In this document: in pieces, positions 39,537-51,928 of the stretch
Layout of the letters: each line of letters starts with the position of its first letter
Position numbering within the stretch: the first letter of the stretch is position 1
DNA from: a bacterium endosymbiont of Escarpia laminata
GTDB taxonomy: Bacteria; Pseudomonadota; Gammaproteobacteria; Chromatiales; Chromatiaceae
DNA: 64,000 nt
Direction: 5' to 3'
Assembly: GCA_003660235.1 (NCBI GenBank)
Contig: QGON01000068.1
Location: 124,001 to 188,000, forward strand
Made by a program: the position numbers and the translations under genes
Notes under the pieces: model-generated
Told to the model about the DNA's origin: nothing
What the model saw: the letters and a program-made list of their open reading frames with translations, nothing else
Database searches by the model: none

Positions 39537-40631
39537 ATGGACAACAAAATAATATCTGGAATATCCAAGTCGTCCATGAAGGCATCGGAAGAACAGAGCA
39601 TCAACACGACCCTGGTCAGTGCCGCCACTCTGCTGGCCCAGGCCGTCATTGCCAAGGGTATCGACCTCGATGCATTTCTCGCACAGCTGGGTATCAGACC
39701 CGATGAATACAACGATCCGAATGGGCGAATCCCGGTCCCTTTGATGCAGCGTGCATGGCGGCTGGCAGTGGAATGGTCCGGGGACGAGTGTTTCGGATTG
39801 GGACTGGCAGATGTGGTGCAACCTGCGGCACTGCATGGAATTGGGCTCTCCATGATCTCTAGCAACAGCCTGCGCGAGGCGATCGAACGGGTCGTCTGTT
39901 ATCAGCGTTTCCTCTCCACTGCATTCAAGATCAGCCTGAATCCAGAGGGTGATCGCTATAGAATCGACTTCTCCACAGAACGTTTCCGGGCCACGCCGGA
40001 TCCCGCTTCCATCGACGGCACCCTGGCTGTGTTTGTGGAGATGTCCCGCATCACGGCCGGTTCCACAGTGCGTCCTGTTCACGTCAATCTGCAAAGAAAA
40101 TCCCCAGCCACATGCGCCACCCGCTACCGGCACTACTTTGGCTGCCCCGTCACGTTTTCCAGTCCCAACAACCAGATCCTGTTTGATCGGGAAACATTCG
40201 ACCGTCCACTGCCCACCGCCAACCCTGATTTGGCAAGAATAAACGATCAGGTCGTCATCGAATATCTGCAACGCTTTGACCCCCAGACGCTTTCCGCACG
40301 GCTCAGGACGCTGATCATCGACGCCCTGCCCGGTGGGACCATCAGTGAAGAATCGATCGTACAGCGACTCAATATGAGCCTGCGGAGCCTCCAGCGGCAG
40401 CTGAAAAATGAACGGACAAGTTACAAAGAGATACTGGCAGGGACACGTCGGCAACTGGCACAGGAGTATCTGACAAACAGCGAGCGCCAGATCATCGAAA
40501 TCGGCTATATGCTGGGCTTCAGTGAACCGAGCAATTTCTCCCGCGCCTTTAAACGCTGGACCGGACAGAGCCCGCAGCAGTTCAGGGAAACGTCCAGAGA
40601 ACAGACCCAAATACATCCCTCACAAATATGA
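39537..40631 (+). CDS. AraC-family transcriptional regulator (OruR/ArgR-like N-domain)
   Basis: 364 residues. The N-terminal ~200 residues match the AraC-type 'arabinose-binding' effector domain found in OruR-like regulators (TTLVSAATLLAQAVIAKGID, LPMQRAW-like VPLMQRAWRLAVEW, LGLADVVQPAALHG). The C-terminal AraC DNA-binding domain has two helix-turn-helix units: SEESIVQRLNMSLRSLQRQL and IIEIGYMLGFSEPSNFSRAF, ending FKRWTGQSPQQFRE. ATG 39537 is the first start clear of the divergent rnm gene; ATG 39576 is an alternative. It lies 94 bases upstream of the lpxC copy, so it may once have controlled it; AGTGT-tgagcatg-ACACT in that gap is a candidate operator. Confidence 0.88.
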   Translation: MDNKIISGISKSSMKASEEQSINTTLVSAATLLAQAVIAKGIDLDAFLAQLGIRPDEYNDPNGRIPVPLMQRAWRLAVEWSGDECFGLGLADVVQPAALHGIGLSMISSNSLREAIERVVCYQRFLSTAFKISLNPEGDRYRIDFSTERFRATPDPASIDGTLAVFVEMSRITAGSTVRPVHVNLQRKSPATCATRYRHYFGCPVTFSSPNNQILFDRETFDRPLPTANPDLARINDQVVIEYLQRFDPQTLSARLRTLIIDALPGGTISEESIVQRLNMSLRSLQRQLKNERTSYKEILAGTRRQLAQEYLTNSERQIIEIGYMLGFSEPSNFSRAFKRWTGQSPQQFRETSREQTQIHPSQI

Positions 40632-40696
40632 TCGAGTGGCGCCTTCAGACATGTGATTGGCGGTAAGGGACCAGCTCAGTTTAACCCTCTCCTTTA

Positions 40697-40714
40697 GTGT
40701 TGAGCATGACACTA
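40697..40714. promoter_or_regulatory. candidate operator upstream of the lpxC copy
   Basis: AGTGTtgagcatgACACT is an inverted repeat (5-bp arms) between the AraC-type regulator gene and the lpxC copy, about 12 bases before the lpxC ribosome-binding site AGGAG. The arms are short, so this is tentative. Confidence 0.3.
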
Positions 40715-40725
40715 GGAGATGTGCC

Positions 40726-41969
40726 ATGAACAATCATATCCAATATCAGAAAACCCTTCGGGAACCTATCAGTTTCGTAGGTATCGGCTTGCATAGCGGA
40801 GAGAGAGCCAAGATCACACTTAAACCGAGCATGAACAGCAGTGGGATCTACTTTTTGCGCAAAGATGTTAAGCCAGGCACCGGTTTGATCCCTGCACGCT
40901 GGTACAACGTGCAGGCCACGACCATGTCAACGACCAAGTGAGTCTTCGACCTCGTGATAGATTTTGGGACATCCCAGTCCCCAAAATCGACTCGGCCTTC
41001 GACAACCTGTTTGTGCCCCGGCCGTCCCGGTCACTGGCACTACGCGACAACCTCGCAAGCTCGTTGCCGCTCCGTTGCCAGCTCCCGATGACTGGACGCC
41101 GCGCTCGGATGCCTACTTTGCTTCCCCTCTGGCGCAAGGCACGCCGGGTAAGCAGTGCGGCCTCGCGGCTACCGGGGACTACCAGCCTTCGCTTCGCTCT
41201 CCATGGCTGGCAGCGGCTGATGAATAAACAGGGAACAACCGTCGATACGGTAGAACATCTGATGGCCGCCCTTTTCGGCTGCGGCGTGGATAACGCTTTG
41301 GTTGAAGTGGACGGCCCGGAAATCCCAATCATGGACGGCAGTGCGGCACCTTTCGCTACCACCATCGAGGGTATCGGCACCCGGAAACAGAGTGTGCCCC
41401 GGCATGCGATATGGGTACAGCGGCCGATTGAGGTGCGCGAGGGTGACAAGTTCGCCATCCTGATGCCGCATCCCACGCCCAGGATTACGATTGCCATCGA
41501 TTTCCCAGGTACTGCGGTCGGTGCTCAAACATTCTCCGTGGAGTTGGTGAATGAGGCGTTCAGAAACGATATCGCAAGAGCAAGGACTTTTGGTTTCACC
41601 CAGCAACTGAATGAACTGCGGAGTCGTGGCCTTGCCCTTGGAGGATCGTTGAATAATGCTGTACTGGTGGATGGGGAACGCATCGTCAATGAAGGTGGAC
41701 TGCGTTACGACAACGAGTTTGTTCGCCACAAGGTGCTCGACGCTTTTGGTGATCTTGCGCTTGCGGGCGTACCGATATTCGGCCACTACTACGCCTATAA
41801 GCCAGGCCATTCGCTCAATCATGCCTTGATGAGACAATTATTCAGTGACCGCTCTGCCTGGTCCTATATTGCAGTTGATGAATTTCAGCAGCTTTTTGGA
41901 GAGCCCATTCAGGCAGAACAGGAAAGCGAGGAGGTGTTTTTGAAACAGGAGGATATTAGGGCCTGTTAA
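40726..41969 (+). pseudogene. lpxC: lpxC-like gene (UDP-3-O-acyl-GlcNAc deacetylase), split by a 281-bp insert
   Basis: Homologue of the zinc deacetylase committing to lipid A synthesis. The 5' part, from ATG 40726 with AGGAG seven bases ahead, encodes YQKTLREPISFVGIGLHSGE and stops 3 bases into an insert after TTMSTT. The 3' part resumes as LMNKQGTTVDTVEHLMAALF and runs through to the end, keeping the zinc and catalytic residues (VEHLMAA; HKVLDAFGD; GHSLNHALMRQ). The two parts are in different frames. It is not in the division cluster where lpxC normally lies, so it is probably a second copy; an intact one should exist elsewhere. The last codons and TAA come from a dispersed repeat (GGGCCTGTTAACACTATGC). 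Confidence 0.85.
40936..41216. other. 281-bp unidentified insert within lpxC
   Basis: DNA lying exactly between the codons for STT and LMN of an otherwise continuous LpxC. It contains a strong hairpin (GATTTTGGG 40960-40968 with CCCAAAATC 40980-40988), is GC-rich after that, has no target duplication and no terminal inverted repeat. It stays open in one rightward frame and one leftward frame, but neither translation resembles a protein family I know. A decayed mobile-element fragment, a retained RNA-like module, or an insertion with deletion are all possible. Confidence 0.7.
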
Positions 41970-41990
41970 CACTATGCATCAGAAAGCACT

Positions 41991-42090
41991 GTTTTTACCG
42001 CGAAGCGCACGAAGGACATAAAGAAAATATATTTTTATATCAATCTCTTACCTTCATGCGCTTCGTATTCTTTATGGTTAGATATGGGTT
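41991..42090 (-). repeat. 100-bp dispersed repeat, copy B
   Basis: Read on the minus strand it begins AACCCATATCTAACC and ends CTTCGTGCGCTTCGCGGTAA plus A-run, with an AT-rich centre and GAA/TTC-rich arms that pair with each other. The same 100-bp layout occurs in direct orientation at 56110-56209. Here it lies between the lpxC copy and a DUF1304 remnant. Confidence 0.75.
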
Positions 42091-42273
42091 ACTGGATGGG
42101 CACGGGTTAATGATTGCCAGGCCATCCCCTGATAGGCAGCCTGGCAAATTTGATGCGCCAGCAGATTCTTTAGTATGACCAAATGGTTTATCCCAAAGGA
42201 ACATTTCAAGAACAAGGAAACAAACGTGAAGAAAGGCGACAAACCCTACCAGTATATTTGCTATGATTATCAA
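42091..42273 (-). pseudogene. DUF1304 membrane protein remnant
   Basis: From a TTG at 42273 the minus strand encodes IIIANILVGFVAFLHVCFLV then LEMFLWDKPFG, the N-terminal helix and signature of the small DUF1304 membrane protein family. After about 33 residues the similarity ends; the frame continues without family features into dispersed repeat copy B. The normal protein is about 120 residues with four helices, so this is a truncated relic. Confidence 0.6.
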
Positions 42274-42431
42274 TCTATTTCAACTCTGCTGGTTATCAAC
42301 TAAATCACTATTTTCGACAATGTACAAAACATCCATTAAACAACGCAACAAATCTATATTCGTCAATTTACTCAAACACCAGCTGCGGGGCGAGTAGTAT
42401 TTGATTACCGTACCAATATGATGGGATATGC

Positions 42432-43493
42432 ATGATCACCGAGTCGGAAATCAAAGCTGGGCAGATTCTGGTAGTTGATGACGAACCACTGAATCTCCTG
42501 GTGGTGGAGGAGATATTTGATAACGCCGGCTACCCAAACGTCCAATCCACTACAGACCCAAAAGAGGCCGTAGCGCTTTTCAAGCAGCAACGATTCGATC
42601 TGATACTGTTGGATCTCAACATGCCGGGTATGGACGGATTCGAGGTAATGTCGCATTTCTGCAAGCAGAAGTACGAGCCCCAACCTCCGGTGCTGGTGCT
42701 CACTGCGATAGGTGATCGGGAGACGCGCTTGAGAGCCTTACGGGGAGGCGCCAAGGATTTCCTGGTCAAACCGTTCGACAGCGAAGAGGTATTGAGCCGC
42801 GCCTACAATCTGCTTGAAGTATCTCTCGCCCACAAACTGATCACTCACTACAGTTCGACCCTGGAGCGTGCGGTCAGAGCAAAAACCAGAGAGCTATTGG
42901 AAACCCAGGCGGAGATCGTCAAACGCCTGGGATATGCCGCTGAGTTCAGAGATACCGAAACGGGAGAACACACGGTTCGTGTTGGACACTACTCCAGGCT
43001 TCTTGCCATGCAGATCGGGTTAAGTGTGGATGAGGCGGAACGGATACTCTATGCAGCGCCAATGCATGATATCGGCAAGATTGGTATTCCAGATAAGATT
43101 CTGCTGAAGCCGGGAAAGCTGGATGCTGTTGAGTGGGAGATAATGAAGACACATACCAGCATCGGCGCCAAAATTCTCCGGGGTGGTTCCAACCTGCTCA
43201 TCGAATGTGCCCGTACTATCGCCCTGACACACCATGAAAAATGGGATGGCAGCGGGTATCCGAAAGGACTGAAAGGTCATCAGATTTCGATCAAAGGCCG
43301 TATTGTTGCTGTTGCCGACGTTTTCGATGCCCTGACCATGTCTCGGCCCTACAAGTCCGCCTGGCCGATTGAGGACGCGATGAAACTGATCAATGAGCAG
43401 TCCGGCATCCACTTTGATCCGACCTTGGTCACCGCATTCAACACTATTCTGGATCAGCTGGTCGAGGTTCGTGAGCAGCATGCCGATCCATAA
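42432..43493 (+). CDS. response regulator with HD-GYP c-di-GMP phosphodiesterase domain
   Basis: 353 residues, RpfG-like. The receiver domain (about 10-130) has the acidic pair VVDDE, phospho-acceptor Asp in LILLDLNMPGMDG, and Lys in FLVKPFDSEE. The HD-GYP domain (about 165-345) has the HD pair in APMHDIGKIGIPDKILLKPG, THHEKWDGSGYPKGLKG (the GYP motif) and ADVFDALTMSRPYK. Intact motifs predict phosphorylation-controlled c-di-GMP hydrolysis. It is the only rightward gene of the signalling island and is convergent with the receiver protein at 43567. No kinase is fused, so the island's kinases are the natural candidates for its input. The start ATG follows GGGA. Confidence 0.93.
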   Translation: MITESEIKAGQILVVDDEPLNLLVVEEIFDNAGYPNVQSTTDPKEAVALFKQQRFDLILLDLNMPGMDGFEVMSHFCKQKYEPQPPVLVLTAIGDRETRLRALRGGAKDFLVKPFDSEEVLSRAYNLLEVSLAHKLITHYSSTLERAVRAKTRELLETQAEIVKRLGYAAEFRDTETGEHTVRVGHYSRLLAMQIGLSVDEAERILYAAPMHDIGKIGIPDKILLKPGKLDAVEWEIMKTHTSIGAKILRGGSNLLIECARTIALTHHEKWDGSGYPKGLKGHQISIKGRIVAVADVFDALTMSRPYKSAWPIEDAMKLINEQSGIHFDPTLVTAFNTILDQLVEVREQHADP

Positions 43494-43566
43494 GCGCAGG
43501 TGGTAATTGTGCCTGTTTCGCCGTCAGCAATACAACCCGATACCGGCTAAACCTCAGCGTGGCATT

Positions 43567-44724
43567 TTATCTGCCAGTTTCAGTAGTTTCCTTCAGGGAA
43601 GCGTTGAGACGGCGCATGATATTTCCGAACTGCACATCCAGCTCCAGCCCGGACTCGTACAAGGCATCAGTCTTGGCTTCTGTTTCAGTGACCATTTCCA
43701 TGAGCACCTTCTCCTGCTCTTCTGAGAGACCCAGATGCATGAAGGATCTCTCTATGTCTACCCCCATATCAGAGAGTATCTGAGCATTCTCTATGCGCTG
43801 CTGCTTATGTTTGCTGTCGATCCCGGCAAGGCTCTGTTTGGCCATTTCAATGACCTCGGAGAGATCTTGTTGACGCCTGTAGAGTTTCTGCTCGGTCTCT
43901 ATGCCCTTGATTCTTGCATCCACACCCTCAATCAATACCGCCAGAGTGTCCTTCAGACGCCCCACTTTTTCTCCATCATCATAAGGCATGCTGCGGATCA
44001 GCAGTGATACCCTCTCACCATTGAAGACGGCTCGGCTGCCAAACTCGAAGATGCGTTGGCCTCCGACCAGGCTTTCCAGCACTGATTGCTCCAAAGGGCG
44101 ATCCAGCCCGTCTTTCGTGATGAAAAGTGTCTCCTGCTGCTGTTTCATTATCAGGCTTCCTGATAATCCATATTCATCCAGAACAGAAAAGACTTGCTGC
44201 CCAAGTTCGGTGAAATCCTTACTGGAAAAACTGTTCTGGAAAAACCTTAATATCACCCCGAACTCTGCGGCACTGGTCATGGCCGTCATCGCCATCTGCA
44301 TGGCATCCTGAGAAGAGTTGCGCAGACTTTTCTTCTGATCGTAGTTTTTTAGTGCGATGCAGATTTTGGCTTTAAGTTCATCTTCATTAAATGGCTTGGT
44401 AATGTAGTCATCAGCGCCTGCTTCATACCCTGCCAGGCGTTCTTCGGGTGATGCCAGAGCCGATACAATAATGATCGGGAGTTCACCGAAGTCAGGGTCT
44501 TTACGGAGTCGCCGGCAGGTTTCCAACCCGTTCAGTACCGGCATGTTGACATCCATGATGATCAGGTCGGGCTTGCGGGTTGCCACGGTTTCTATGCAAG
44601 CCTGGCCATTTTCAGCGGATATCAGTTCAAATTCGTTGGCCAGAAGCTCTTCGAGGATGATCTGGTTAAGCGGTTCATCGTCAACACCAAGAATCAGGGG
44701 TTGAGTCTTTATCTGCTCTTCCAT
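43567..44724 (-). CDS. response regulator with unrecognised C-terminal domain
   Basis: 385 residues. The receiver (about 10-125) is complete: GVDDEPLN, phospho-acceptor Asp in LIIMDVNMPVLNG, and Lys in DYITKPFNEDELK. The remaining 260 residues match no output domain I recognise. They include a helical start (AMQMAMTAMTSAAEF), a GAF-like alternating alpha/beta part (LFITKDGLDRPLEQ; SLLIRSMPYDDGEKVG) and a C-terminal coiled coil (LYRRQQDLSEVIEMAKQSLA). No DNA-binding or enzymatic motif is seen, so it may be an adaptor or protein-binding output. A perfect sigma-28 promoter lies at 44942-44968, separated from the gene by a MITE-like element, which places it in the flagellar/chemotaxis regulon. 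Confidence 0.85.
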   Translation of the reverse strand: MEEQIKTQPLILGVDDEPLNQIILEELLANEFELISAENGQACIETVATRKPDLIIMDVNMPVLNGLETCRRLRKDPDFGELPIIIVSALASPEERLAGYEAGADDYITKPFNEDELKAKICIALKNYDQKKSLRNSSQDAMQMAMTAMTSAAEFGVILRFFQNSFSSKDFTELGQQVFSVLDEYGLSGSLIMKQQQETLFITKDGLDRPLEQSVLESLVGGQRIFEFGSRAVFNGERVSLLIRSMPYDDGEKVGRLKDTLAVLIEGVDARIKGIETEQKLYRRQQDLSEVIEMAKQSLAGIDSKHKQQRIENAQILSDMGVDIERSFMHLGLSEEQEKVLMEMVTETEAKTDALYESGLELDVQFGNIMRRLNASLKETTETGR

Positions 44725-44745
44725 TCTTATATTCCCATAATTTTT

Positions 44746-44916
44746 GGAGCCTCTGATTAATGGTCATCTCCGTCCTTTGGTCCGTAAACGCTACATCCAT
44801 TTAGTACTACTTGAGCATGGCGAGAAATCTTAATCCTCGTAACCTATTGATAAAAAATTTGTTTTAGATCTCTCCCCACGGTCGAGATGACAGTGACTTA
44901 ATTAATCAGGGGTTCC
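44746..44916. mobile_element. MITE-like element, family A copy 2, in the leader of the response-regulator gene
   Basis: Ends GGAGCCTCTGATTAAT (44746-44761) and ATTAATCAGGGGTTCC (44901-44916) are inverted repeats with 14 of 16 matches; GTCATCTC (44763-44770) and GAGATGAC (44885-44892) extend the pairing. There is no coding capacity. The GGAGCCTCTGA terminus is shared with the element at 1909, defining one family. It separates a sigma-28 promoter from its gene and lengthens the untranslated leader by about 170 bases. Confidence 0.6.
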
Positions 44917-44941
44917 TTTATTTTATTTCTGAATGCAAGAA

Positions 44942-44968
44942 TTATCGGCATCTCACGGTTTTTCTTTA
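44942..44968 (-). promoter_or_regulatory. perfect sigma-28 promoter
   Basis: On the minus strand TAAA (44968-44965), exactly 15 bases, GCCGATAA (44949-44942): a full match to the flagellar sigma-28 consensus. It starts one base after the stop codon of the kinase gene and points to the response regulator at 44724. The transcript would start near 44935. Confidence 0.82.
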
Positions 44969-44969
44969 A

Positions 44970-46487
44970 TCAGTGCCCCGATTTTTCCCGATTGTCGGAC
45001 ACTGGTATCAGAAACTGGAAAATGGCCCCTTTATCGGGAGCCTGCTCTGCCCATATATGGCCTCTGTGGGCCTCTATGATCTCTTTACAAATGGCAAGCC
45101 CCAGACCTGTACCTACGGTTCCTGCCTCAATCTTGCTGCTCTGGATGAATTTTTTGAAGACCTTCTTCAATTCGACCTTTGGAATACCGATGCCCTGATC
45201 CTGAATCTTGAAATGTAGAGCGGGGATTATCTGCTTGCCATGCGTCATATTGCCCGTCTGGACAGTCAGGTGAATATGGCCCCCGGACGGGGAGAACTTG
45301 ATGGCGTTGGAGAGTAAATTACGAATGACCTGGCCTATCCGCAAGGCGTCAAAGTCGCCGTACACGCTTTTTTCCGGGGATGTTAGTTCACAGTGAAGAC
45401 CTTGATCCTGGATGTAACACCTCAGTTCAGTAACCACCTCTTCTGCGGCCACCATGATATCGTTGTGCTTAAGTATCAACTCCATACGGCCTGATTCAAG
45501 TTTCGCCAGGTCGAGAATACCATTGAGCAGTATCAACAGACGCTCACCACTTGCATGAACATGTGAGAAGTAGTCGATTAGCTTTTTTCGTTCTGCGGTT
45601 TCTCCCTTTTTCAGGCCAAAGGATGAAAAGCTCAAAATAGCGTGCATTGGCGTACGCAGTTCGTGAGACATATTGGCAAGGAACCGGGACTTTGCCTGAT
45701 TGGCCTCTTCGGCCTGCTCCTTGGCCAATATCAAATCTTTTGTCTGTTCATCTATCAGGTATTGCAGATTGTTCTGGTGCTCCATCAATTCCTGTTGTGC
45801 AGAAGTCAGATGTTCATTGGCAGTGACCAGTTGCCCTGTTTTATGTTCAAGTTCGACCACCATACACTGGCTGCGCCAATACTCTTTTGCCAACCGATTG
45901 CCCAATAGATAGATGAATAGGGAATAGACAGCGATGAGGGTGCCGAACAGGAGCACAGAACCGTTTCCCTGTATACCCAGATATAAGCAGGCCAACACGG
46001 TTGGGGACCAGAACAGTAAGAGAAAAAAGGCCCAAGGCAGTTGATAGAGATTCATTGTAGCCAGGGCACCGGCACATATTCCCAGGCCGATCACAATCGC
46101 AGTCATACCTTGCAGCGAGAGTTCGGTAACGATCACAATTATGCAGAGCATCACACCAATCAGCAGTGTCGTTCCCAGGGTCCAGAAAACGTATCGTAAC
46201 CTTAGTCCATCGATACTTTCATCAGTGGCCTGAGCGAGTTGGCGACCATAGAAAAACCTGACAAAACTAACCACGAACAGGCTGATAATCACCAGGCTTA
46301 ATAGATCCATTTTGGTGTACAGTTCACGGTTGCTCAGTACAAAAATGCCAAGAAGTACTGGATAGGCCAGTGCGATGACACCTGAGCGCCGCCCGAGGTC
46401 AACACTGCCCGCAGAATCCGCCTGTCGCTGCTGTTCCATGCTCAGGGAGGTCAGTTCAGAGTGAGGTTGGAATAGTCGCATGCTCAC
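44970..46487 (-). CDS. membrane histidine kinase with multi-helix N-terminus
   Basis: 505 residues. The N-terminal ~200 residues form six to seven hydrophobic helices (VIALAYPVLLGIFVL, TLLIGVMLCIIVIVTELSL, WAFFLLLFWSPTVLACLYLG) with little periplasmic sequence, so it may sense membrane state or a small hydrophobic ligand. A coiled coil follows (HLTSAQQELMEHQNNLQYL), then HisKA with phospho-acceptor His in FLANMSHELRTPMHAIL and a HATPase domain (NLLSNAIKFSPSGG, DQGIGIP, GTGLGLAI). There is no fused receiver. Its HisKA-ATPase half is closely similar to those of the two upstream kinases, indicating local duplication. It overlaps the CHASE-type kinase gene by 4 bases. Confidence 0.9.
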   Translation of the reverse strand: MSMRLFQPHSELTSLSMEQQRQADSAGSVDLGRRSGVIALAYPVLLGIFVLSNRELYTKMDLLSLVIISLFVVSFVRFFYGRQLAQATDESIDGLRLRYVFWTLGTTLLIGVMLCIIVIVTELSLQGMTAIVIGLGICAGALATMNLYQLPWAFFLLLFWSPTVLACLYLGIQGNGSVLLFGTLIAVYSLFIYLLGNRLAKEYWRSQCMVVELEHKTGQLVTANEHLTSAQQELMEHQNNLQYLIDEQTKDLILAKEQAEEANQAKSRFLANMSHELRTPMHAILSFSSFGLKKGETAERKKLIDYFSHVHASGERLLILLNGILDLAKLESGRMELILKHNDIMVAAEEVVTELRCYIQDQGLHCELTSPEKSVYGDFDALRIGQVIRNLLSNAIKFSPSGGHIHLTVQTGNMTHGKQIIPALHFKIQDQGIGIPKVELKKVFKKFIQSSKIEAGTVGTGLGLAICKEIIEAHRGHIWAEQAPDKGAIFQFLIPVSDNREKSGH

Positions 46488-48367
46488 TGTGCTCTGTTTT
46501 CCGCTGCTGGCTGGATGGGGGGAGTGAGCGGGATCAAAAAGTGGAACTGCGCCCCCTGTTCCAAGTTGTTTTCAGCCCAGATCCGCCCAGCGTGCGCCTC
46601 GATGATCTCTTTGCTGATTGCCAGCCCCAAGCCGGTGCCTCCAGCCCCGGTGCGGGTCTTGCTGCTCTGGATGAATTTATCGAAGATAGTATCCAGTTCT
46701 GCTTCCGGGATCCCAACGCCCTGATCAAGAACGCTCAGCTGCAACCCAGGTATCTCATGGCCGTCAATCTCCAGTCTCTCCTGACTGACAGATATCTGGA
46801 TATGTCCCCCGGTAGCTGTGAACTTTATGGCATTGGAGAGCAGGTTGGTTATCACCTGACTGATACGCATGGCATCGAACTCGCCCTGGGTATCCGTTTT
46901 TGCAGGCAGGAGTTCACACTGCACTCCGCGGTTTGTTATGTATCCTTCCAGCTCATGCACACAATTTTCTGCCACGATCCTCAAGTCATTTTTCCGGTAC
47001 TCCAATATCATGCGCCCCGCCTCAAGTTTCGAGAGATCCAGCAGATCATTTAGCAAGATCAACAGACGCTCGCCACTCGCATGAATATGGGAGAAATAAC
47101 CAGACAGTTTTTTTCGCGCTGCTGTTTCCCACTTCTTCTGACCGAAGGCCGAGAAGCTGAGAATCGCATGCATAGGGGTACGCAGTTCGTGAGACATATT
47201 TGCCAGAAACTCGGATTTGGCGCTGTTGGCCTCCTCTGCCCTGCGCATTGTATGTTCAAGGGCCTCCTGATGTTCAATGGCATTCCGGTACAGTATTTCG
47301 AGTTTCCTGTTTGCGCTCTCCAGCGCCCGGGTCTTATGATCGACCTCCTGCTGGATCTCTTGCCGATGCAATTCGGAGATTCGCAGACGTTCATGATGGG
47401 CAACGAAAAAACGGTGTATAAACAGGGTAAACAGCAGACCGGTGGCCGCACTCAGGAAGAGCAGCATGTACTGCATCCCGGACCACTCAATGGTTTTGGT
47501 TATGCGGAGCCGCAGCTGATCATTGAAAACACCGGACAGAGGCTGTACGTTGCTAAAAACCTTGAAGAGCGCTGATTGAGGAGGAGTATCGTCAGAATTC
47601 CATTCTGCCAGGGGGGTCGCTGCAAAATCCGCCTCCAGCTTTACCTGCAGGTGTTTCCCGGATTCCAGTAGCAGCAGCTGTCTGCTGTCGAGATCCAGTT
47701 TTACGAAACCCTTGATTCTTTGCTGGCGTTCAGAGACCTGATTCGGTGGTTGCCGTCCGTGATAGACAGGTTTGAGGGCCACCAGGGTTTTGATACAACT
47801 CTCTTGGTCGCCGAAAGCAATAGTGGTGGCTGCCGTGTCGATCGCCCGCTGCAGAGTCGTTTCAAGATCCTTGCAGGTGGAGAGATCACGTCCCAGCATA
47901 CCCAGGCTAATAACGGTTCTGGGCTCAAATAGCAGTACGGGGAAGTGGAGATCCTGTTTCCCCCTTATCAGCGGCTGCCCCCGTTGATAATCGCGAATTC
48001 TGAATCCAATGTAACCATGCCACTCTGCCTGCAGTTGCTCGAACGCTTCCCGTTCATCTGCTGAGACTGCAGGAAGATATGCTGCTGTTGAGATAAAGGG
48101 TGCGTCGATATGAGGCTGGGAGAGAAGCCGAAAATCATCAGGATAAATCTTAGGCGCGATCTGCAGAAAGCTGGCCAGCCCCAGGACTCCACGTTCCACA
48201 CTGAAGAGATTGCCGGAAAGCCGCTGCACCAACGTTGCACTCTCCTGGTAAAAGCGCTCCTCTTCCAGATCCAGCAGGTAGCTACGGGCCTGGAATAGAA
48301 GCAAGGCTGTGGATATGGCGCCAATGAGCCAGATCGTTACAACCGGCAGTTGGGAAGTATGGGTCAT
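46484..48367 (-). CDS. histidine kinase with CHASE-type periplasmic sensor
   Basis: 627 residues. One membrane helix at the N-terminus (VVTIWLIGAISTALLLFQA), a periplasmic domain of about 270 residues resembling CHASE (ERGVLGLASFLQIAPKIYPDDFRLL; AYLPAVSADEREAFE; IGFRIRDY; the FEPR-like LFEPRTVISLGMLGRDLS), a second helix near residue 305, a coiled coil, then HisKA (FLANMSHELRTPMHAIL) and HATPase (NLLSNAIKFTATGG, DQGVGIPEAELD, GTGLGLAISKEIIEAH). CHASE domains bind small extracellular ligands. It lacks a receiver and probably phosphorylates the separate receiver proteins. It is 23 bases downstream of the substrate-binding protein gene and overlaps the next kinase. Confidence 0.88.
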   Translation of the reverse strand: MTHTSQLPVVTIWLIGAISTALLLFQARSYLLDLEEERFYQESATLVQRLSGNLFSVERGVLGLASFLQIAPKIYPDDFRLLSQPHIDAPFISTAAYLPAVSADEREAFEQLQAEWHGYIGFRIRDYQRGQPLIRGKQDLHFPVLLFEPRTVISLGMLGRDLSTCKDLETTLQRAIDTAATTIAFGDQESCIKTLVALKPVYHGRQPPNQVSERQQRIKGFVKLDLDSRQLLLLESGKHLQVKLEADFAATPLAEWNSDDTPPQSALFKVFSNVQPLSGVFNDQLRLRITKTIEWSGMQYMLLFLSAATGLLFTLFIHRFFVAHHERLRISELHRQEIQQEVDHKTRALESANRKLEILYRNAIEHQEALEHTMRRAEEANSAKSEFLANMSHELRTPMHAILSFSAFGQKKWETAARKKLSGYFSHIHASGERLLILLNDLLDLSKLEAGRMILEYRKNDLRIVAENCVHELEGYITNRGVQCELLPAKTDTQGEFDAMRISQVITNLLSNAIKFTATGGHIQISVSQERLEIDGHEIPGLQLSVLDQGVGIPEAELDTIFDKFIQSSKTRTGAGGTGLGLAISKEIIEAHAGRIWAENNLEQGAQFHFLIPLTPPIQPAAENRAQ

Positions 48368-48390
48368 ATGGGTTCCGCAATAGCGTCCGT

Positions 48391-49374
48391 TCAGGGTTTC
48401 TCCCTGATGGCCCGTTCCTGCAACTCCCTGGGCAGCCGGATGCCGGATCTTTTCAGCAGTCCGGTATTGATGTATTCATTCCAGCGCTGATTCGAGGTCA
48501 TTGGAATCTGTGACGGGTCACTCCCCTCCAGAATCGCCAAGGCCATGTTGCCCGCCCACTCTCCCTGCTCTTCGGGAATTTTGGTAAACACCACCATGCT
48601 GTAAGGCAGCATCCATCGATTGAAGCTTATACTCAACTGCTTGCCGTGCGTGATTACATGGTTCCTGGCTGCGGCATCATTCCAACCTTCAATGCCTGAG
48701 TTATTGAGCAGCACCATAAAATCATAACTCTGGCCCTCCAGAAAACCCTGTTTCCACTCATCAAAGGTATTGGCAAAGAGGGCGTCGAGCTGAAAATCAC
48801 TATGACTGAAATGTCGTTTTAGATGTGTGAAGTTCTTATGCGCAGTACGCGTATCCGGCACAAGCAACAGGCCGTGTCCGGCGCCGATCGACAGTATCTC
48901 CTTCACACTGCGCACTAATGGATTAACCGGGAATATCTCAACCACACCCGTGACATTGGAGTAGGGGTAGCCATATTCTTTGACTGACCAGTTGATGCCA
49001 CAGACGACAAAGGGTATCTCCAGGTTCTTGAAATGAGGGGCTACCAGGAACTTGGAAGCATTATCATCGGAAGCGATAACGACATCAGGTTTGAGCTGCG
49101 ATATCAGGGTTTTCGCCTTGAGCGCCTGCTTACGGGCAAAGTCGTGGCTTTTATTACGCTTGGTATCCATATGGAACTCGCTGATTTCGCAGCGGCCATC
49201 CAGTACAGAGTGGATGCCCTTTCCTATGCCATCGTTCCATTCATACCCTGGCGCATAAGAGGAGACCCACAGGCAGGTGGCTGCCGTGGCTCGGAAAGGC
49301 GACAGAAGCATCAGGCATGCAAGCAGAAGAAACAACAGGACTGAGTTGTTGATGGTCAGCACTCTGGCATGCAT
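48391..49374 (-). CDS. periplasmic ABC-type substrate-binding protein of a kinase cluster
   Basis: 327 residues from ATG 49374 (GAGGTG ahead), with a signal peptide (LLFLLLACLMLLSPFRATA). The mature part resembles the ABC_sub_bind (PF04392)/sugar-binding type I fold: LWVSSYAPGYEWNDGIGKGI, LKPDVVIASDDNASKF, IPFVVCGINWSVKEYGYPYS, NVTGVVEI, LLLVPDTRTAHKN. No permease or ATPase gene is adjacent; instead it sits between two histidine kinase genes. It is therefore more likely to present a ligand to the CHASE-type kinase than to feed a transporter. The ligand is unknown. Confidence 0.82.
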   Translation of the reverse strand: MHARVLTINNSVLLFLLLACLMLLSPFRATAATCLWVSSYAPGYEWNDGIGKGIHSVLDGRCEISEFHMDTKRNKSHDFARKQALKAKTLISQLKPDVVIASDDNASKFLVAPHFKNLEIPFVVCGINWSVKEYGYPYSNVTGVVEIFPVNPLVRSVKEILSIGAGHGLLLVPDTRTAHKNFTHLKRHFSHSDFQLDALFANTFDEWKQGFLEGQSYDFMVLLNNSGIEGWNDAAARNHVITHGKQLSISFNRWMLPYSMVVFTKIPEEQGEWAGNMALAILEGSDPSQIPMTSNQRWNEYINTGLLKRSGIRLPRELQERAIREKP

Positions 49375-49378
49375 ATTT

Positions 49379-51928
49379 TCACCTCTCATTTACATTGCAA
49401 TCATCACTTTGGGAGGCGAATTCGGCAGCTTCCGTTTCCTCTTTTTTGAGCGGTAACTCGAAAATGAACTCCGCACCGCCCAGCGGATGATTTTGCGCCC
49501 ATATTCTGCCGTTATGGTTCTCTATGATCTCTTTACTAATCGCCAATCCCAAGCCTGTCCCCCCGCCTCCACTGCGAGTCTTGCTGCTCTGAATAAACTT
49601 GTCGAATACCGTCTCCAACTCATCCTCTGGAATACCTATGCCTTCGTCACGCAAACTCAGCCGCAGTGAAAGGCACTGGTTTTGATCCTCTTTACGGCGG
49701 CCACAGAGGAGCGTGCCGTTACTGAAGGTGATGGTGATACGCCGGCGGGCCGGCGTGAATTTAATCGCATTGTCCAACAGATTGCCGATGACCTGGCCAA
49801 TGCGTTGCGAATCGAACCAACCTCTGGTTTCACAGGTTGGCGGGATGATCTCCAGCGTCAGTTCCTGTTCCTCCAGTCGGGTCATCTGCTCGGTTGCACA
49901 CTGGTTGACGATTCTTTGAAGATCAGAGGCTGTGTAGGTCATCGATATCCGGTCAGACTCCAACTTTGCCAGATCCAGCAAGTCGTTGAGCAGGAACAAC
50001 AGCCGGCCACCACTCTCATTGATATAAGTGAAGTAGGCCCCCAGTTTTTCCAGAGTCGCCTGGTTCAGACGCTGCATACCCATGCTGGAAAAGCTGAGAA
50101 TGGCGTGCATCGGTGTACGCAGCTCATGGGACATATTGGCCAGAAAGCGGGACTTCGCCAAGTTGGCTTCCTCGGCCTTTGCAGCGGCCTTGGCCAGTTC
50201 TCTCGTACGTTCATTCACTGTCTGTTCCAGAAGCAGGCTGTGTTGTCGCAGTTTCTTCTCGATACGCAAGCGGTTGAGTGCACCGGCGAGGATATCCGCC
50301 GCTGCGTTGAGATAGTCAACATCCATCGGATCATATTCAGTCCCGGCATCGAGATAGAGGTTGATCACGCCCTGCGTGCGTCCGTCACTGACCACAGGAA
50401 TGACATAGTGTCCGTGGGACCCCATCCCAGGGAATTGGATCACATGTCTGGGTTCGTCACTGCAGAGGGAGTGAATGGGTTTTCCCTGCAACGCCGCACG
50501 GCCGCACAGACAGTGGCCGAAGGATACGCTGGCACAGTGGCTGATAAAATATTTCTCCAGATTATGCTCTACTGCGAGGACCAGTTGATCACCTGCTTCG
50601 TTGGCTAAAAAGATGGCCCCCTGATCGCGGTTCTTCATCAGTGGCTGGTCCAGCATTTCTACAAGAAATCGCTGCAATAATTCCTGCTGCTGATGACTCT
50701 CCAGGGATATCTCCAGTAACCTGGAGAGACTGGTTCGGCGCTGCATCTCTTGCCTGAGCACCTTGTGCGATCTTTTCTGCTCAGTGATATCGCGCCAGAC
50801 CGATTGATTGAACTGCCTGCCATCGATCTCGATCAGCTGACAGATTACCTCCACATGTCGTATCCGGCCATCCTTTGTGCGGTGTTGGCTTTCGAAAACG
50901 TCATGACCCTCTTGTTTGATCTTCTGTAGATGTTGCTGCACCTCTTCGGGGGATTCGATGATATCGATATCCGTGATCTTTAATCTTTCGAACTCCTGCC
51001 GTGTATAACCGAGATTTTCATGGGCAAAACGATTGAACTGGACAAATACACCATCCTCCAAATCAATCGTTGCTATGGCGTTTGGCGCCAGCTCGAAAAG
51101 GGTACGATAGCGAATCTCGGACTCCTGAAGACGGTGCTCTTGAGCCTTGCGTTCCGAGATGTCATGTGCCGATCCGATCAGACCGATGGGGACTCCTTCA
51201 TCGTCCCGTAATTGGGTGACGGTCATCCAGGTGGGGAAAACCTCGCCATTTTGCCGGACATGCCCCACTTCCCCGCTGTGCCCCCCTTGGGCAACGACCT
51301 CCTGATTGAAGGGTTTCACATCCCGTTCCATCTGCTCGGGTGTGTGAAAGAGGCTAAGGTGTCTGCCGGGAAGCTCGTCTGCCGAATATCCGTGCATCCC
51401 TGCCCAGGCTTCGTTGGTAGTGCGGATGATCCCGTCCACTCCAGCTATGGCAATACCATCGGGCGACTGCTTGAAGGCGGCCTCCAGGAGTTGATGTTGC
51501 TGTTGGGCAGCTTTCTCTTCGGTTAGATCACGCCAGGTGACATGGAGGAGAGTTTCGTCACCAACCTGGAGTGTGGTGAGTGTTACTTCACAGGGAAATT
51601 CCTCACCATCGATGCGCCGATGCCACCATTCGAATCGGTGGAAGTGCGCTTCCAAGGCCGTGATGATCATTTCTGTCGCTTTTTCGCTGGAGAGACGGCA
51701 GTCAGGTTGTCGTTCCGGCGAGAGGTCAGCCGGGTGTGAGTTCAACACTTCCGATTTGTCTACCGCGTGCAGCATCCTGACTGCCGCTGGATTACAGTCG
51801 ATAAATGTCTCACCTTGCAGCAGCAGGATTGCATCTTCCGAGCGATTGAATGCCTCCTGGTGGATATGCTTGCTATCAAGTCGCAGTCTGCTGTCAGGGG
51901 TTGTCATCACTGAGTCACCAGCATTCAT
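49379..51928 (-). CDS. cytoplasmic PAS-PAS-PAS-GAF histidine kinase
   Basis: 849 residues, no membrane helix. Three PAS units in order: about 25-140 (NRSEDAILLLQGETFIDCNPA), 148-265 (FKQSPDGIAIAGVDGIIRTT, ending DISERK) and 275-390 (FELAPNAIATIDLEDGVFV, ending DITEQK). A GAF-type domain follows (about 410-570; CASVSFGHCLCGRAALQGKP), whose Cys-bearing motif is that of redox- or ligand-responsive GAFs. Then HisKA (FLANMSHELRTPMHAIL) and HATPase (NLLDNAIKFTPARR, DEGIGIPEDELE, GTGLGLAISKEIIENH). No receiver is fused. It overlaps the receiver-ATPase gene upstream by 4 bases (ATGA), so the two are co-translated and probably work together. Confidence 0.9.
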   Translation of the reverse strand: MNAGDSVMTTPDSRLRLDSKHIHQEAFNRSEDAILLLQGETFIDCNPAAVRMLHAVDKSEVLNSHPADLSPERQPDCRLSSEKATEMIITALEAHFHRFEWWHRRIDGEEFPCEVTLTTLQVGDETLLHVTWRDLTEEKAAQQQHQLLEAAFKQSPDGIAIAGVDGIIRTTNEAWAGMHGYSADELPGRHLSLFHTPEQMERDVKPFNQEVVAQGGHSGEVGHVRQNGEVFPTWMTVTQLRDDEGVPIGLIGSAHDISERKAQEHRLQESEIRYRTLFELAPNAIATIDLEDGVFVQFNRFAHENLGYTRQEFERLKITDIDIIESPEEVQQHLQKIKQEGHDVFESQHRTKDGRIRHVEVICQLIEIDGRQFNQSVWRDITEQKRSHKVLRQEMQRRTSLSRLLEISLESHQQQELLQRFLVEMLDQPLMKNRDQGAIFLANEAGDQLVLAVEHNLEKYFISHCASVSFGHCLCGRAALQGKPIHSLCSDEPRHVIQFPGMGSHGHYVIPVVSDGRTQGVINLYLDAGTEYDPMDVDYLNAAADILAGALNRLRIEKKLRQHSLLLEQTVNERTRELAKAAAKAEEANLAKSRFLANMSHELRTPMHAILSFSSMGMQRLNQATLEKLGAYFTYINESGGRLLFLLNDLLDLAKLESDRISMTYTASDLQRIVNQCATEQMTRLEEQELTLEIIPPTCETRGWFDSQRIGQVIGNLLDNAIKFTPARRRITITFSNGTLLCGRRKEDQNQCLSLRLSLRDEGIGIPEDELETVFDKFIQSSKTRSGGGGTGLGLAISKEIIENHNGRIWAQNHPLGGAEFIFELPLKKEETEAAEFASQSDDCNVNER

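Follow-up and report, generated by a model that had tools for sequence, protein, structure and literature searches.

The response regulator (receiver) gene on the minus strand of the window is probably, though by no means surely, a member of the flagellar regulon whose 5' leader is for the most part an old MITE that has added a candidate IHF site and a stem-loop to it. The window is the whole 64,000-nt stretch of contig QGON01000068.1 that was analysed, and the features in question lie between a histidine kinase gene and the receiver gene, in the order promoter, 25 bp, MITE, 21 bp and receiver ATG (Table 1). With the predicted start, the leader of the receiver gene would be roughly 185-215 nt long, most of it MITE. 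The locus was compared in the window genome (G000) and in five others (G001-G005), all of the vestimentiferan tubeworm symbiont genus; the close relatives of the receiver come from endosymbionts of Lamellibrachia and Escarpia.

Table 1. Features of the kinase-receiver locus, in window coordinates.
Feature	Position	Strand	Remarks
Histidine kinase (HisKA and HATPase_c)	44970..46487	-	ORF call and Pfam; gene directly upstream of the promoter
Kinase stop codon, TGA	44972-44970	-	a single nt separates it from the -35 box
Putative sigma-28 (FliA) promoter	44942..44968	-	0 mismatches
-35 box, TAAA(G)	44968-44965	-
-10 box, GCCGATAA	44949-44942	-
Predicted transcript start	44934..44936	-	placed from the -10 box
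171-bp MITE, IS5 type by sequence	44746..44916	-	most of the 5' leader; recognised by arms, dispersed copies, YTAR elsewhere and an IS end
Left terminal inverted repeat, GGAACCCCTGATTAAT	44901..44916	-	15 of 16 columns invariant in six orthologues
Right terminal inverted repeat	44746..44761	-	14 of 16 columns invariant in six orthologues
Candidate IHF site, TATCAATAGGTTA (consensus WATCAANNNNTTR)	44840..44852	-	roughly +84 to +96 on the predicted transcript
Weak Shine-Dalgarno-like GGGA	44733..44736	-	8 nt before the ATG; read from the sequence
Response regulator (receiver, GAF-like domain, long coiled coil; the latter two from models)	43567..44724	-	ATG at 44724

A sigma-28 promoter behind the kinase gene

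The sequence-only reading had proposed a perfect sigma-28 site immediately after the kinase stop codon and directed toward the receiver gene, and in this it was right, both in the match and in its placement and coordinates. TAAA-N15-GCCGATAA is matched at all 12 core positions with 0 mismatches, and this is the sole perfect match in the window, where the pattern with up to two mismatches was found eight times against 2.8 expected from shuffled sequence. Compared with the FliA promoter consensus, TAAAGTTT-N11-GCCGATAA (PMC2859248), the site shares all 12 core positions and the G after TAAA, and differs in having TAAAGAAA instead of TAAAGTTT as the -35 region and in its unusually long leader, which is owed to the element. 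There was no convincing sigma-70 promoter or terminator within the leader.

Genome-wide, five perfect sites were found in the window genome, and 57 sites with no more than one mismatch compared to 20 for a reversed control pattern; the other five genomes together contained 22 perfect sites versus one or two control matches. As two of the five in the window genome sit within ORFs on the opposite strand, a perfect match is in itself no proof of a promoter, and the argument rests on conservation. The receiver-gene site is the only locus at which each of the six genus genomes has a perfect match. When the six genomes were aligned, none of the 12 positions of the promoter boxes varied, and 10 of the 15 spacer positions and 93 of the 171 positions of the element were invariant; as a yardstick, 33 of 46 four-fold degenerate positions in the receiver gene were invariant in the same genomes. 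A homologue of the receiver from another genus of the family (33% identical) likewise has a perfect sigma-28 site about 65 nt before the gene. A FliA gene scoring above the family cut-off is present (G000:C14:55901), and sites with at most one mismatch lie upstream of motY, cheV, ycgR/PilZ and two methyl-accepting chemotaxis protein (MCP) genes in the window genome, which suggests that the sigma-28 motif is in use; a full complement of flagellar genes has been reported for tubeworm symbionts of this kind (PMC9796809). Thus the presence of FliA, the motif at other flagellar genes and the conservation in six genomes bear out the earlier assignment, and the sequence evidence for a sigma-28 promoter at the receiver gene is strong. 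In a genome of another genus (G015, L228 8043-8069), the perfect sigma-28 promoter of a homologous regulator has a short leader and no element.

An IS5-type MITE in the leader

The 171-bp inverted-repeat element that had been noted between the promoter and the ATG is real, with arms of 16 nt that are 88% complementary. Its identification as a MITE also stands up: it is short, has inverted ends and no transposase, and occurs in several dispersed copies. About a dozen matches related to it were present in the window genome, and a search of 38 genomes showed related copies dispersed in each of the six of the genus and next to none in the others. Where complete copies lie at other loci, they have 4-bp duplications (TTAA, CTAG, TTAG or CTAA) on their flanks that conform to YTAR, the target of IS5 (PMC10359306), and a DUF772-type IS with a TTAG duplication in G005 (L210) matches GGAACCCCTGATTAA at one end without a difference over 15 nt, the other end being less similar to the MITE. 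The YTAR duplications of other copies and the likeness of the ends to this DUF772 IS, both shared with the IS5 family, identify the element on sequence criteria as an IS5-type MITE; the receiver copy differs from the family in having no clear duplication.

Of the 18 DUF772 loci examined as possible parents only L210 had a convincing matching end; its match is confined to the outer ~15 nt, and no parent IS with a matching MITE interior was found. The idea that the MITE brought the promoter with it was rejected, as the promoter lies outside the element. Nor is it a Correia element, the core ends of which (CCGGTACGG / TCAGGACAA; PMC2649163) are absent from it. A search of the literature library found no report on MITEs in vestimentiferan symbionts.

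The inner core of the MITE, GTCATCTCGACCGTNGGGAGAGATCT (window 44863-44909), also stands alone as short dispersed repeats at many loci in G000-G005. A second complete copy in the window genome (L093, G000:C18, 6796-7001) lies 13 bp upstream of a perfect sigma-28 site that precedes a methyl-accepting chemotaxis gene, apparently split by a frameshift. There the promoter is on the opposite side of the element from the receiver case, and since four relatives without the element read GCCGAAAA at this locus, the adjacency of MITE and promoter looks like coincidence.

The promoter had also been described as cut off from its gene by the MITE. The element is, however, found at the same place beside the receiver gene in every one of the six genomes, with promoter boxes that show no decay, so that 'cut off' is misleading for what appears, from this long coexistence, to be an old, genus-wide leader and not a recent disruption. 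Among the 36 distinct MITE loci listed, the receiver locus was the only one occupied in six genomes; one was occupied in three genomes, three in two and the rest in one genome each. A YTAR pair was absent from the receiver copy in all six orthologues (the flanks in the window genome are TAAA and AAAA), as would fit an old, decayed insertion, and the copy has fixed mismatches between its arms and falls among those copies that are older and have diverged further. The shared position, the missing duplication and the arm mismatches together indicate that, as far as sequence can date it, the insertion predates the genus and that the promoter has been retained alongside the element since. An orthologous locus lacking the element, the comparison that had been proposed, was looked for and not found, all six genus genomes carrying it; the nearest receiver homologues outside the genus are 40% identical and their locus is not orthologous.

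A candidate IHF site and the possible role of the leader

Within the element we found a motif, missed by the sequence-only reading, with 0 mismatches to the IHF consensus as given in PMC5963220 and with all 13 columns invariant in the six orthologues. No invariant runs in the element are longer than the 14 columns of the left arm and the 13 columns of this motif, and when the interior columns were shuffled an invariant run of at least 13 arose in 1.7% of trials (P=0.017). TATCAA-N4-TTA is retained, with a varying N4 (TAGG, TGGG, TGAG, AAGC or AAGG), by several further members of the subfamily to which the receiver copy belongs; many MITE copies, including an abundant second subfamily, are without the motif, and in the window genome the receiver copy is the only one to have it among the copies examined. 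The pattern is short (four matches in the window against 1.6 expected), and we give the motif moderate weight because it was noticed after the alignment had been seen. An IHF-alpha gene is present above the cut-off (G000:C33:186518), the presence of IHF being judged on this subunit. The conserved IHF motif is the best candidate for a function of the element.

The following sequence of events would account for the locus. An IS5-type MITE would have inserted between the promoter and the start codon before the genus diversified, and would then have been kept. FliA-RNA polymerase would start near 44935 and transcribe through the MITE, and IHF, if bound about 85-95 bp downstream of the start, would bend the template just past the promoter, most likely so as to restrain or condition transcription. 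In the mRNA, the element would form a long imperfect stem-loop, which is a possible RNase III substrate and may mildly mask the ribosome-binding site.

A comparable arrangement is known from Neisseria meningitidis, where a Correia element (Correia repeat enclosed element) is located between the promoter and the mtrCDE genes; its IHF site reduces transcription, and RNase III cleaves the element (PMC2649163). The two cases are alike in that a MITE with inverted ends and an internal IHF site separates a native promoter from its gene and thereby becomes part of the mRNA leader (PMC2649163, PMC10969869), and differ in that the tubeworm symbiont element has IS5-type ends and a YTAR target, follows a sigma-28 promoter, belongs to another organism and is conserved throughout a genus. 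We therefore put forward, as a tentative suggestion with a somewhat less than even chance of being right, that the MITE leader has been domesticated genus-wide as an IHF-dependent brake or gate, in parallel with, and independently of, the Correia element at mtrCDE. To our knowledge, there are few documented cases of a bacterial MITE that plausibly has a regulatory role and has remained in one position while a genus diverged. As promoter, element and IHF motif can be traced in six genomes, such a domestication would be testable with simple reporters.

The strongest competing explanation is that the FliA promoter is real and the MITE inert, an old neutral insertion that is simply read through and persists because precise excision is rare. 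This is a doubtful reading, to be taken seriously nevertheless, as the element varies in its interior (of the 113 columns outside the deletion 64 are invariant, close to the neutral level), G002, G004 and G005 share a deletion of ~26 bp inside it, which implies that not all of the element is needed, and its predicted effect on the accessibility of the ribosome site is small. Against it stand the retention of this locus alone, among the 36 listed, in all six genomes, the coincidence of the longest invariant runs with the left arm and the IHF motif, and the conservation of the arms (29 of 32 columns invariant).

Less likely again, and in our view improbable, is that the leader acts mainly as RNA, the stem of the element pairing the two leader ends, in part hiding the ribosome site or start codon, or being cut by RNase III, with the IHF match a coincidence. 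The leader is predicted to fold more stably than shuffled sequences (z -2.6), the predicted accessibility of the ribosome site is lower with the element than without it in all six genomes (0.34-0.67 versus 0.53-0.72), and a CAUUC at the 5' end could pair with GAAUG around the start codon in four of the six. However, direct comparison of the two arms in the six genomes revealed no compensatory changes, G003 has lost the pairing, and a stem is to be expected of any MITE. The masking by the element is small, and almost nil in G003; both G003 and G002 have changes that weaken its stem, and Rfam contained no RNA family matching within 40000-50000. Of the earlier proposal that the element may alter the stability or translation of the mRNA, an effect on translation is thus weakly suggested by folding, and the case for an RNA role of the leader is weaker than that for the IHF site.

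The kinase and the receiver protein

In the favoured reading, that of a flagellar-regulon gene behind an old MITE leader, a promoter of its own directly behind the kinase stop codon would make the receiver expressible with the motility regulon and independently of the kinase operon. This fits the state of the locus in G001, where the HisKA/HATPase part of the kinase has been deleted, apparently in frame, from about residue 156 through the last of the catalytic part (L088 6114-6626), and where promoter and receiver are intact. Transcripts reading through from the kinase operon may also reach the gene. That they are its only source, the sigma-28 motif being a chance match or a relic, seems very improbable: the receiver does lie in order and on the same strand as the kinases, with no intrinsic terminator found between the kinase and receiver genes, and two other perfect matches in the window genome fall inside opposite-strand ORFs, but the site is perfect and its 12 positions invariant in six genomes, a perfect site precedes the other-genus homologue, and receiver and promoter were retained in the genome whose kinase has no catalytic domains left.

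In the receiver domain the phosphorylation residues D15, D16, D58 and K110 are conserved. The C-terminal part matched no Pfam family in any of 15 homologues, and Foldseek gave no match below E 0.001. When its structural model was compared using VIA-align, the top matches were GAF domains (3cit_A, Z 13.2, rmsd 2.8, 136 aligned), and the models give a GAF-like domain and a long coiled coil beyond the receiver domain. Neither Pfam nor the models revealed a recognisable DNA-binding or enzymatic output domain, which makes a scaffold function in signalling a guess. Tubeworm symbionts are released from their hosts and have retained flagellar genes; the promoter would link a protein made up of receiver, GAF-like and coiled-coil parts with the motility programme that such host-released symbionts have.

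Residues 131-385 of the receiver (window 43570-44334) belong to an unnamed family with several paralogues per genome, and one paralogue (L225) adjoins a kinase that is 44% identical to the window kinase. In G005 an insertion sequence, which has a transposase-like frame of 467 aa, interrupts the receiver gene itself (L087 2562-5247).
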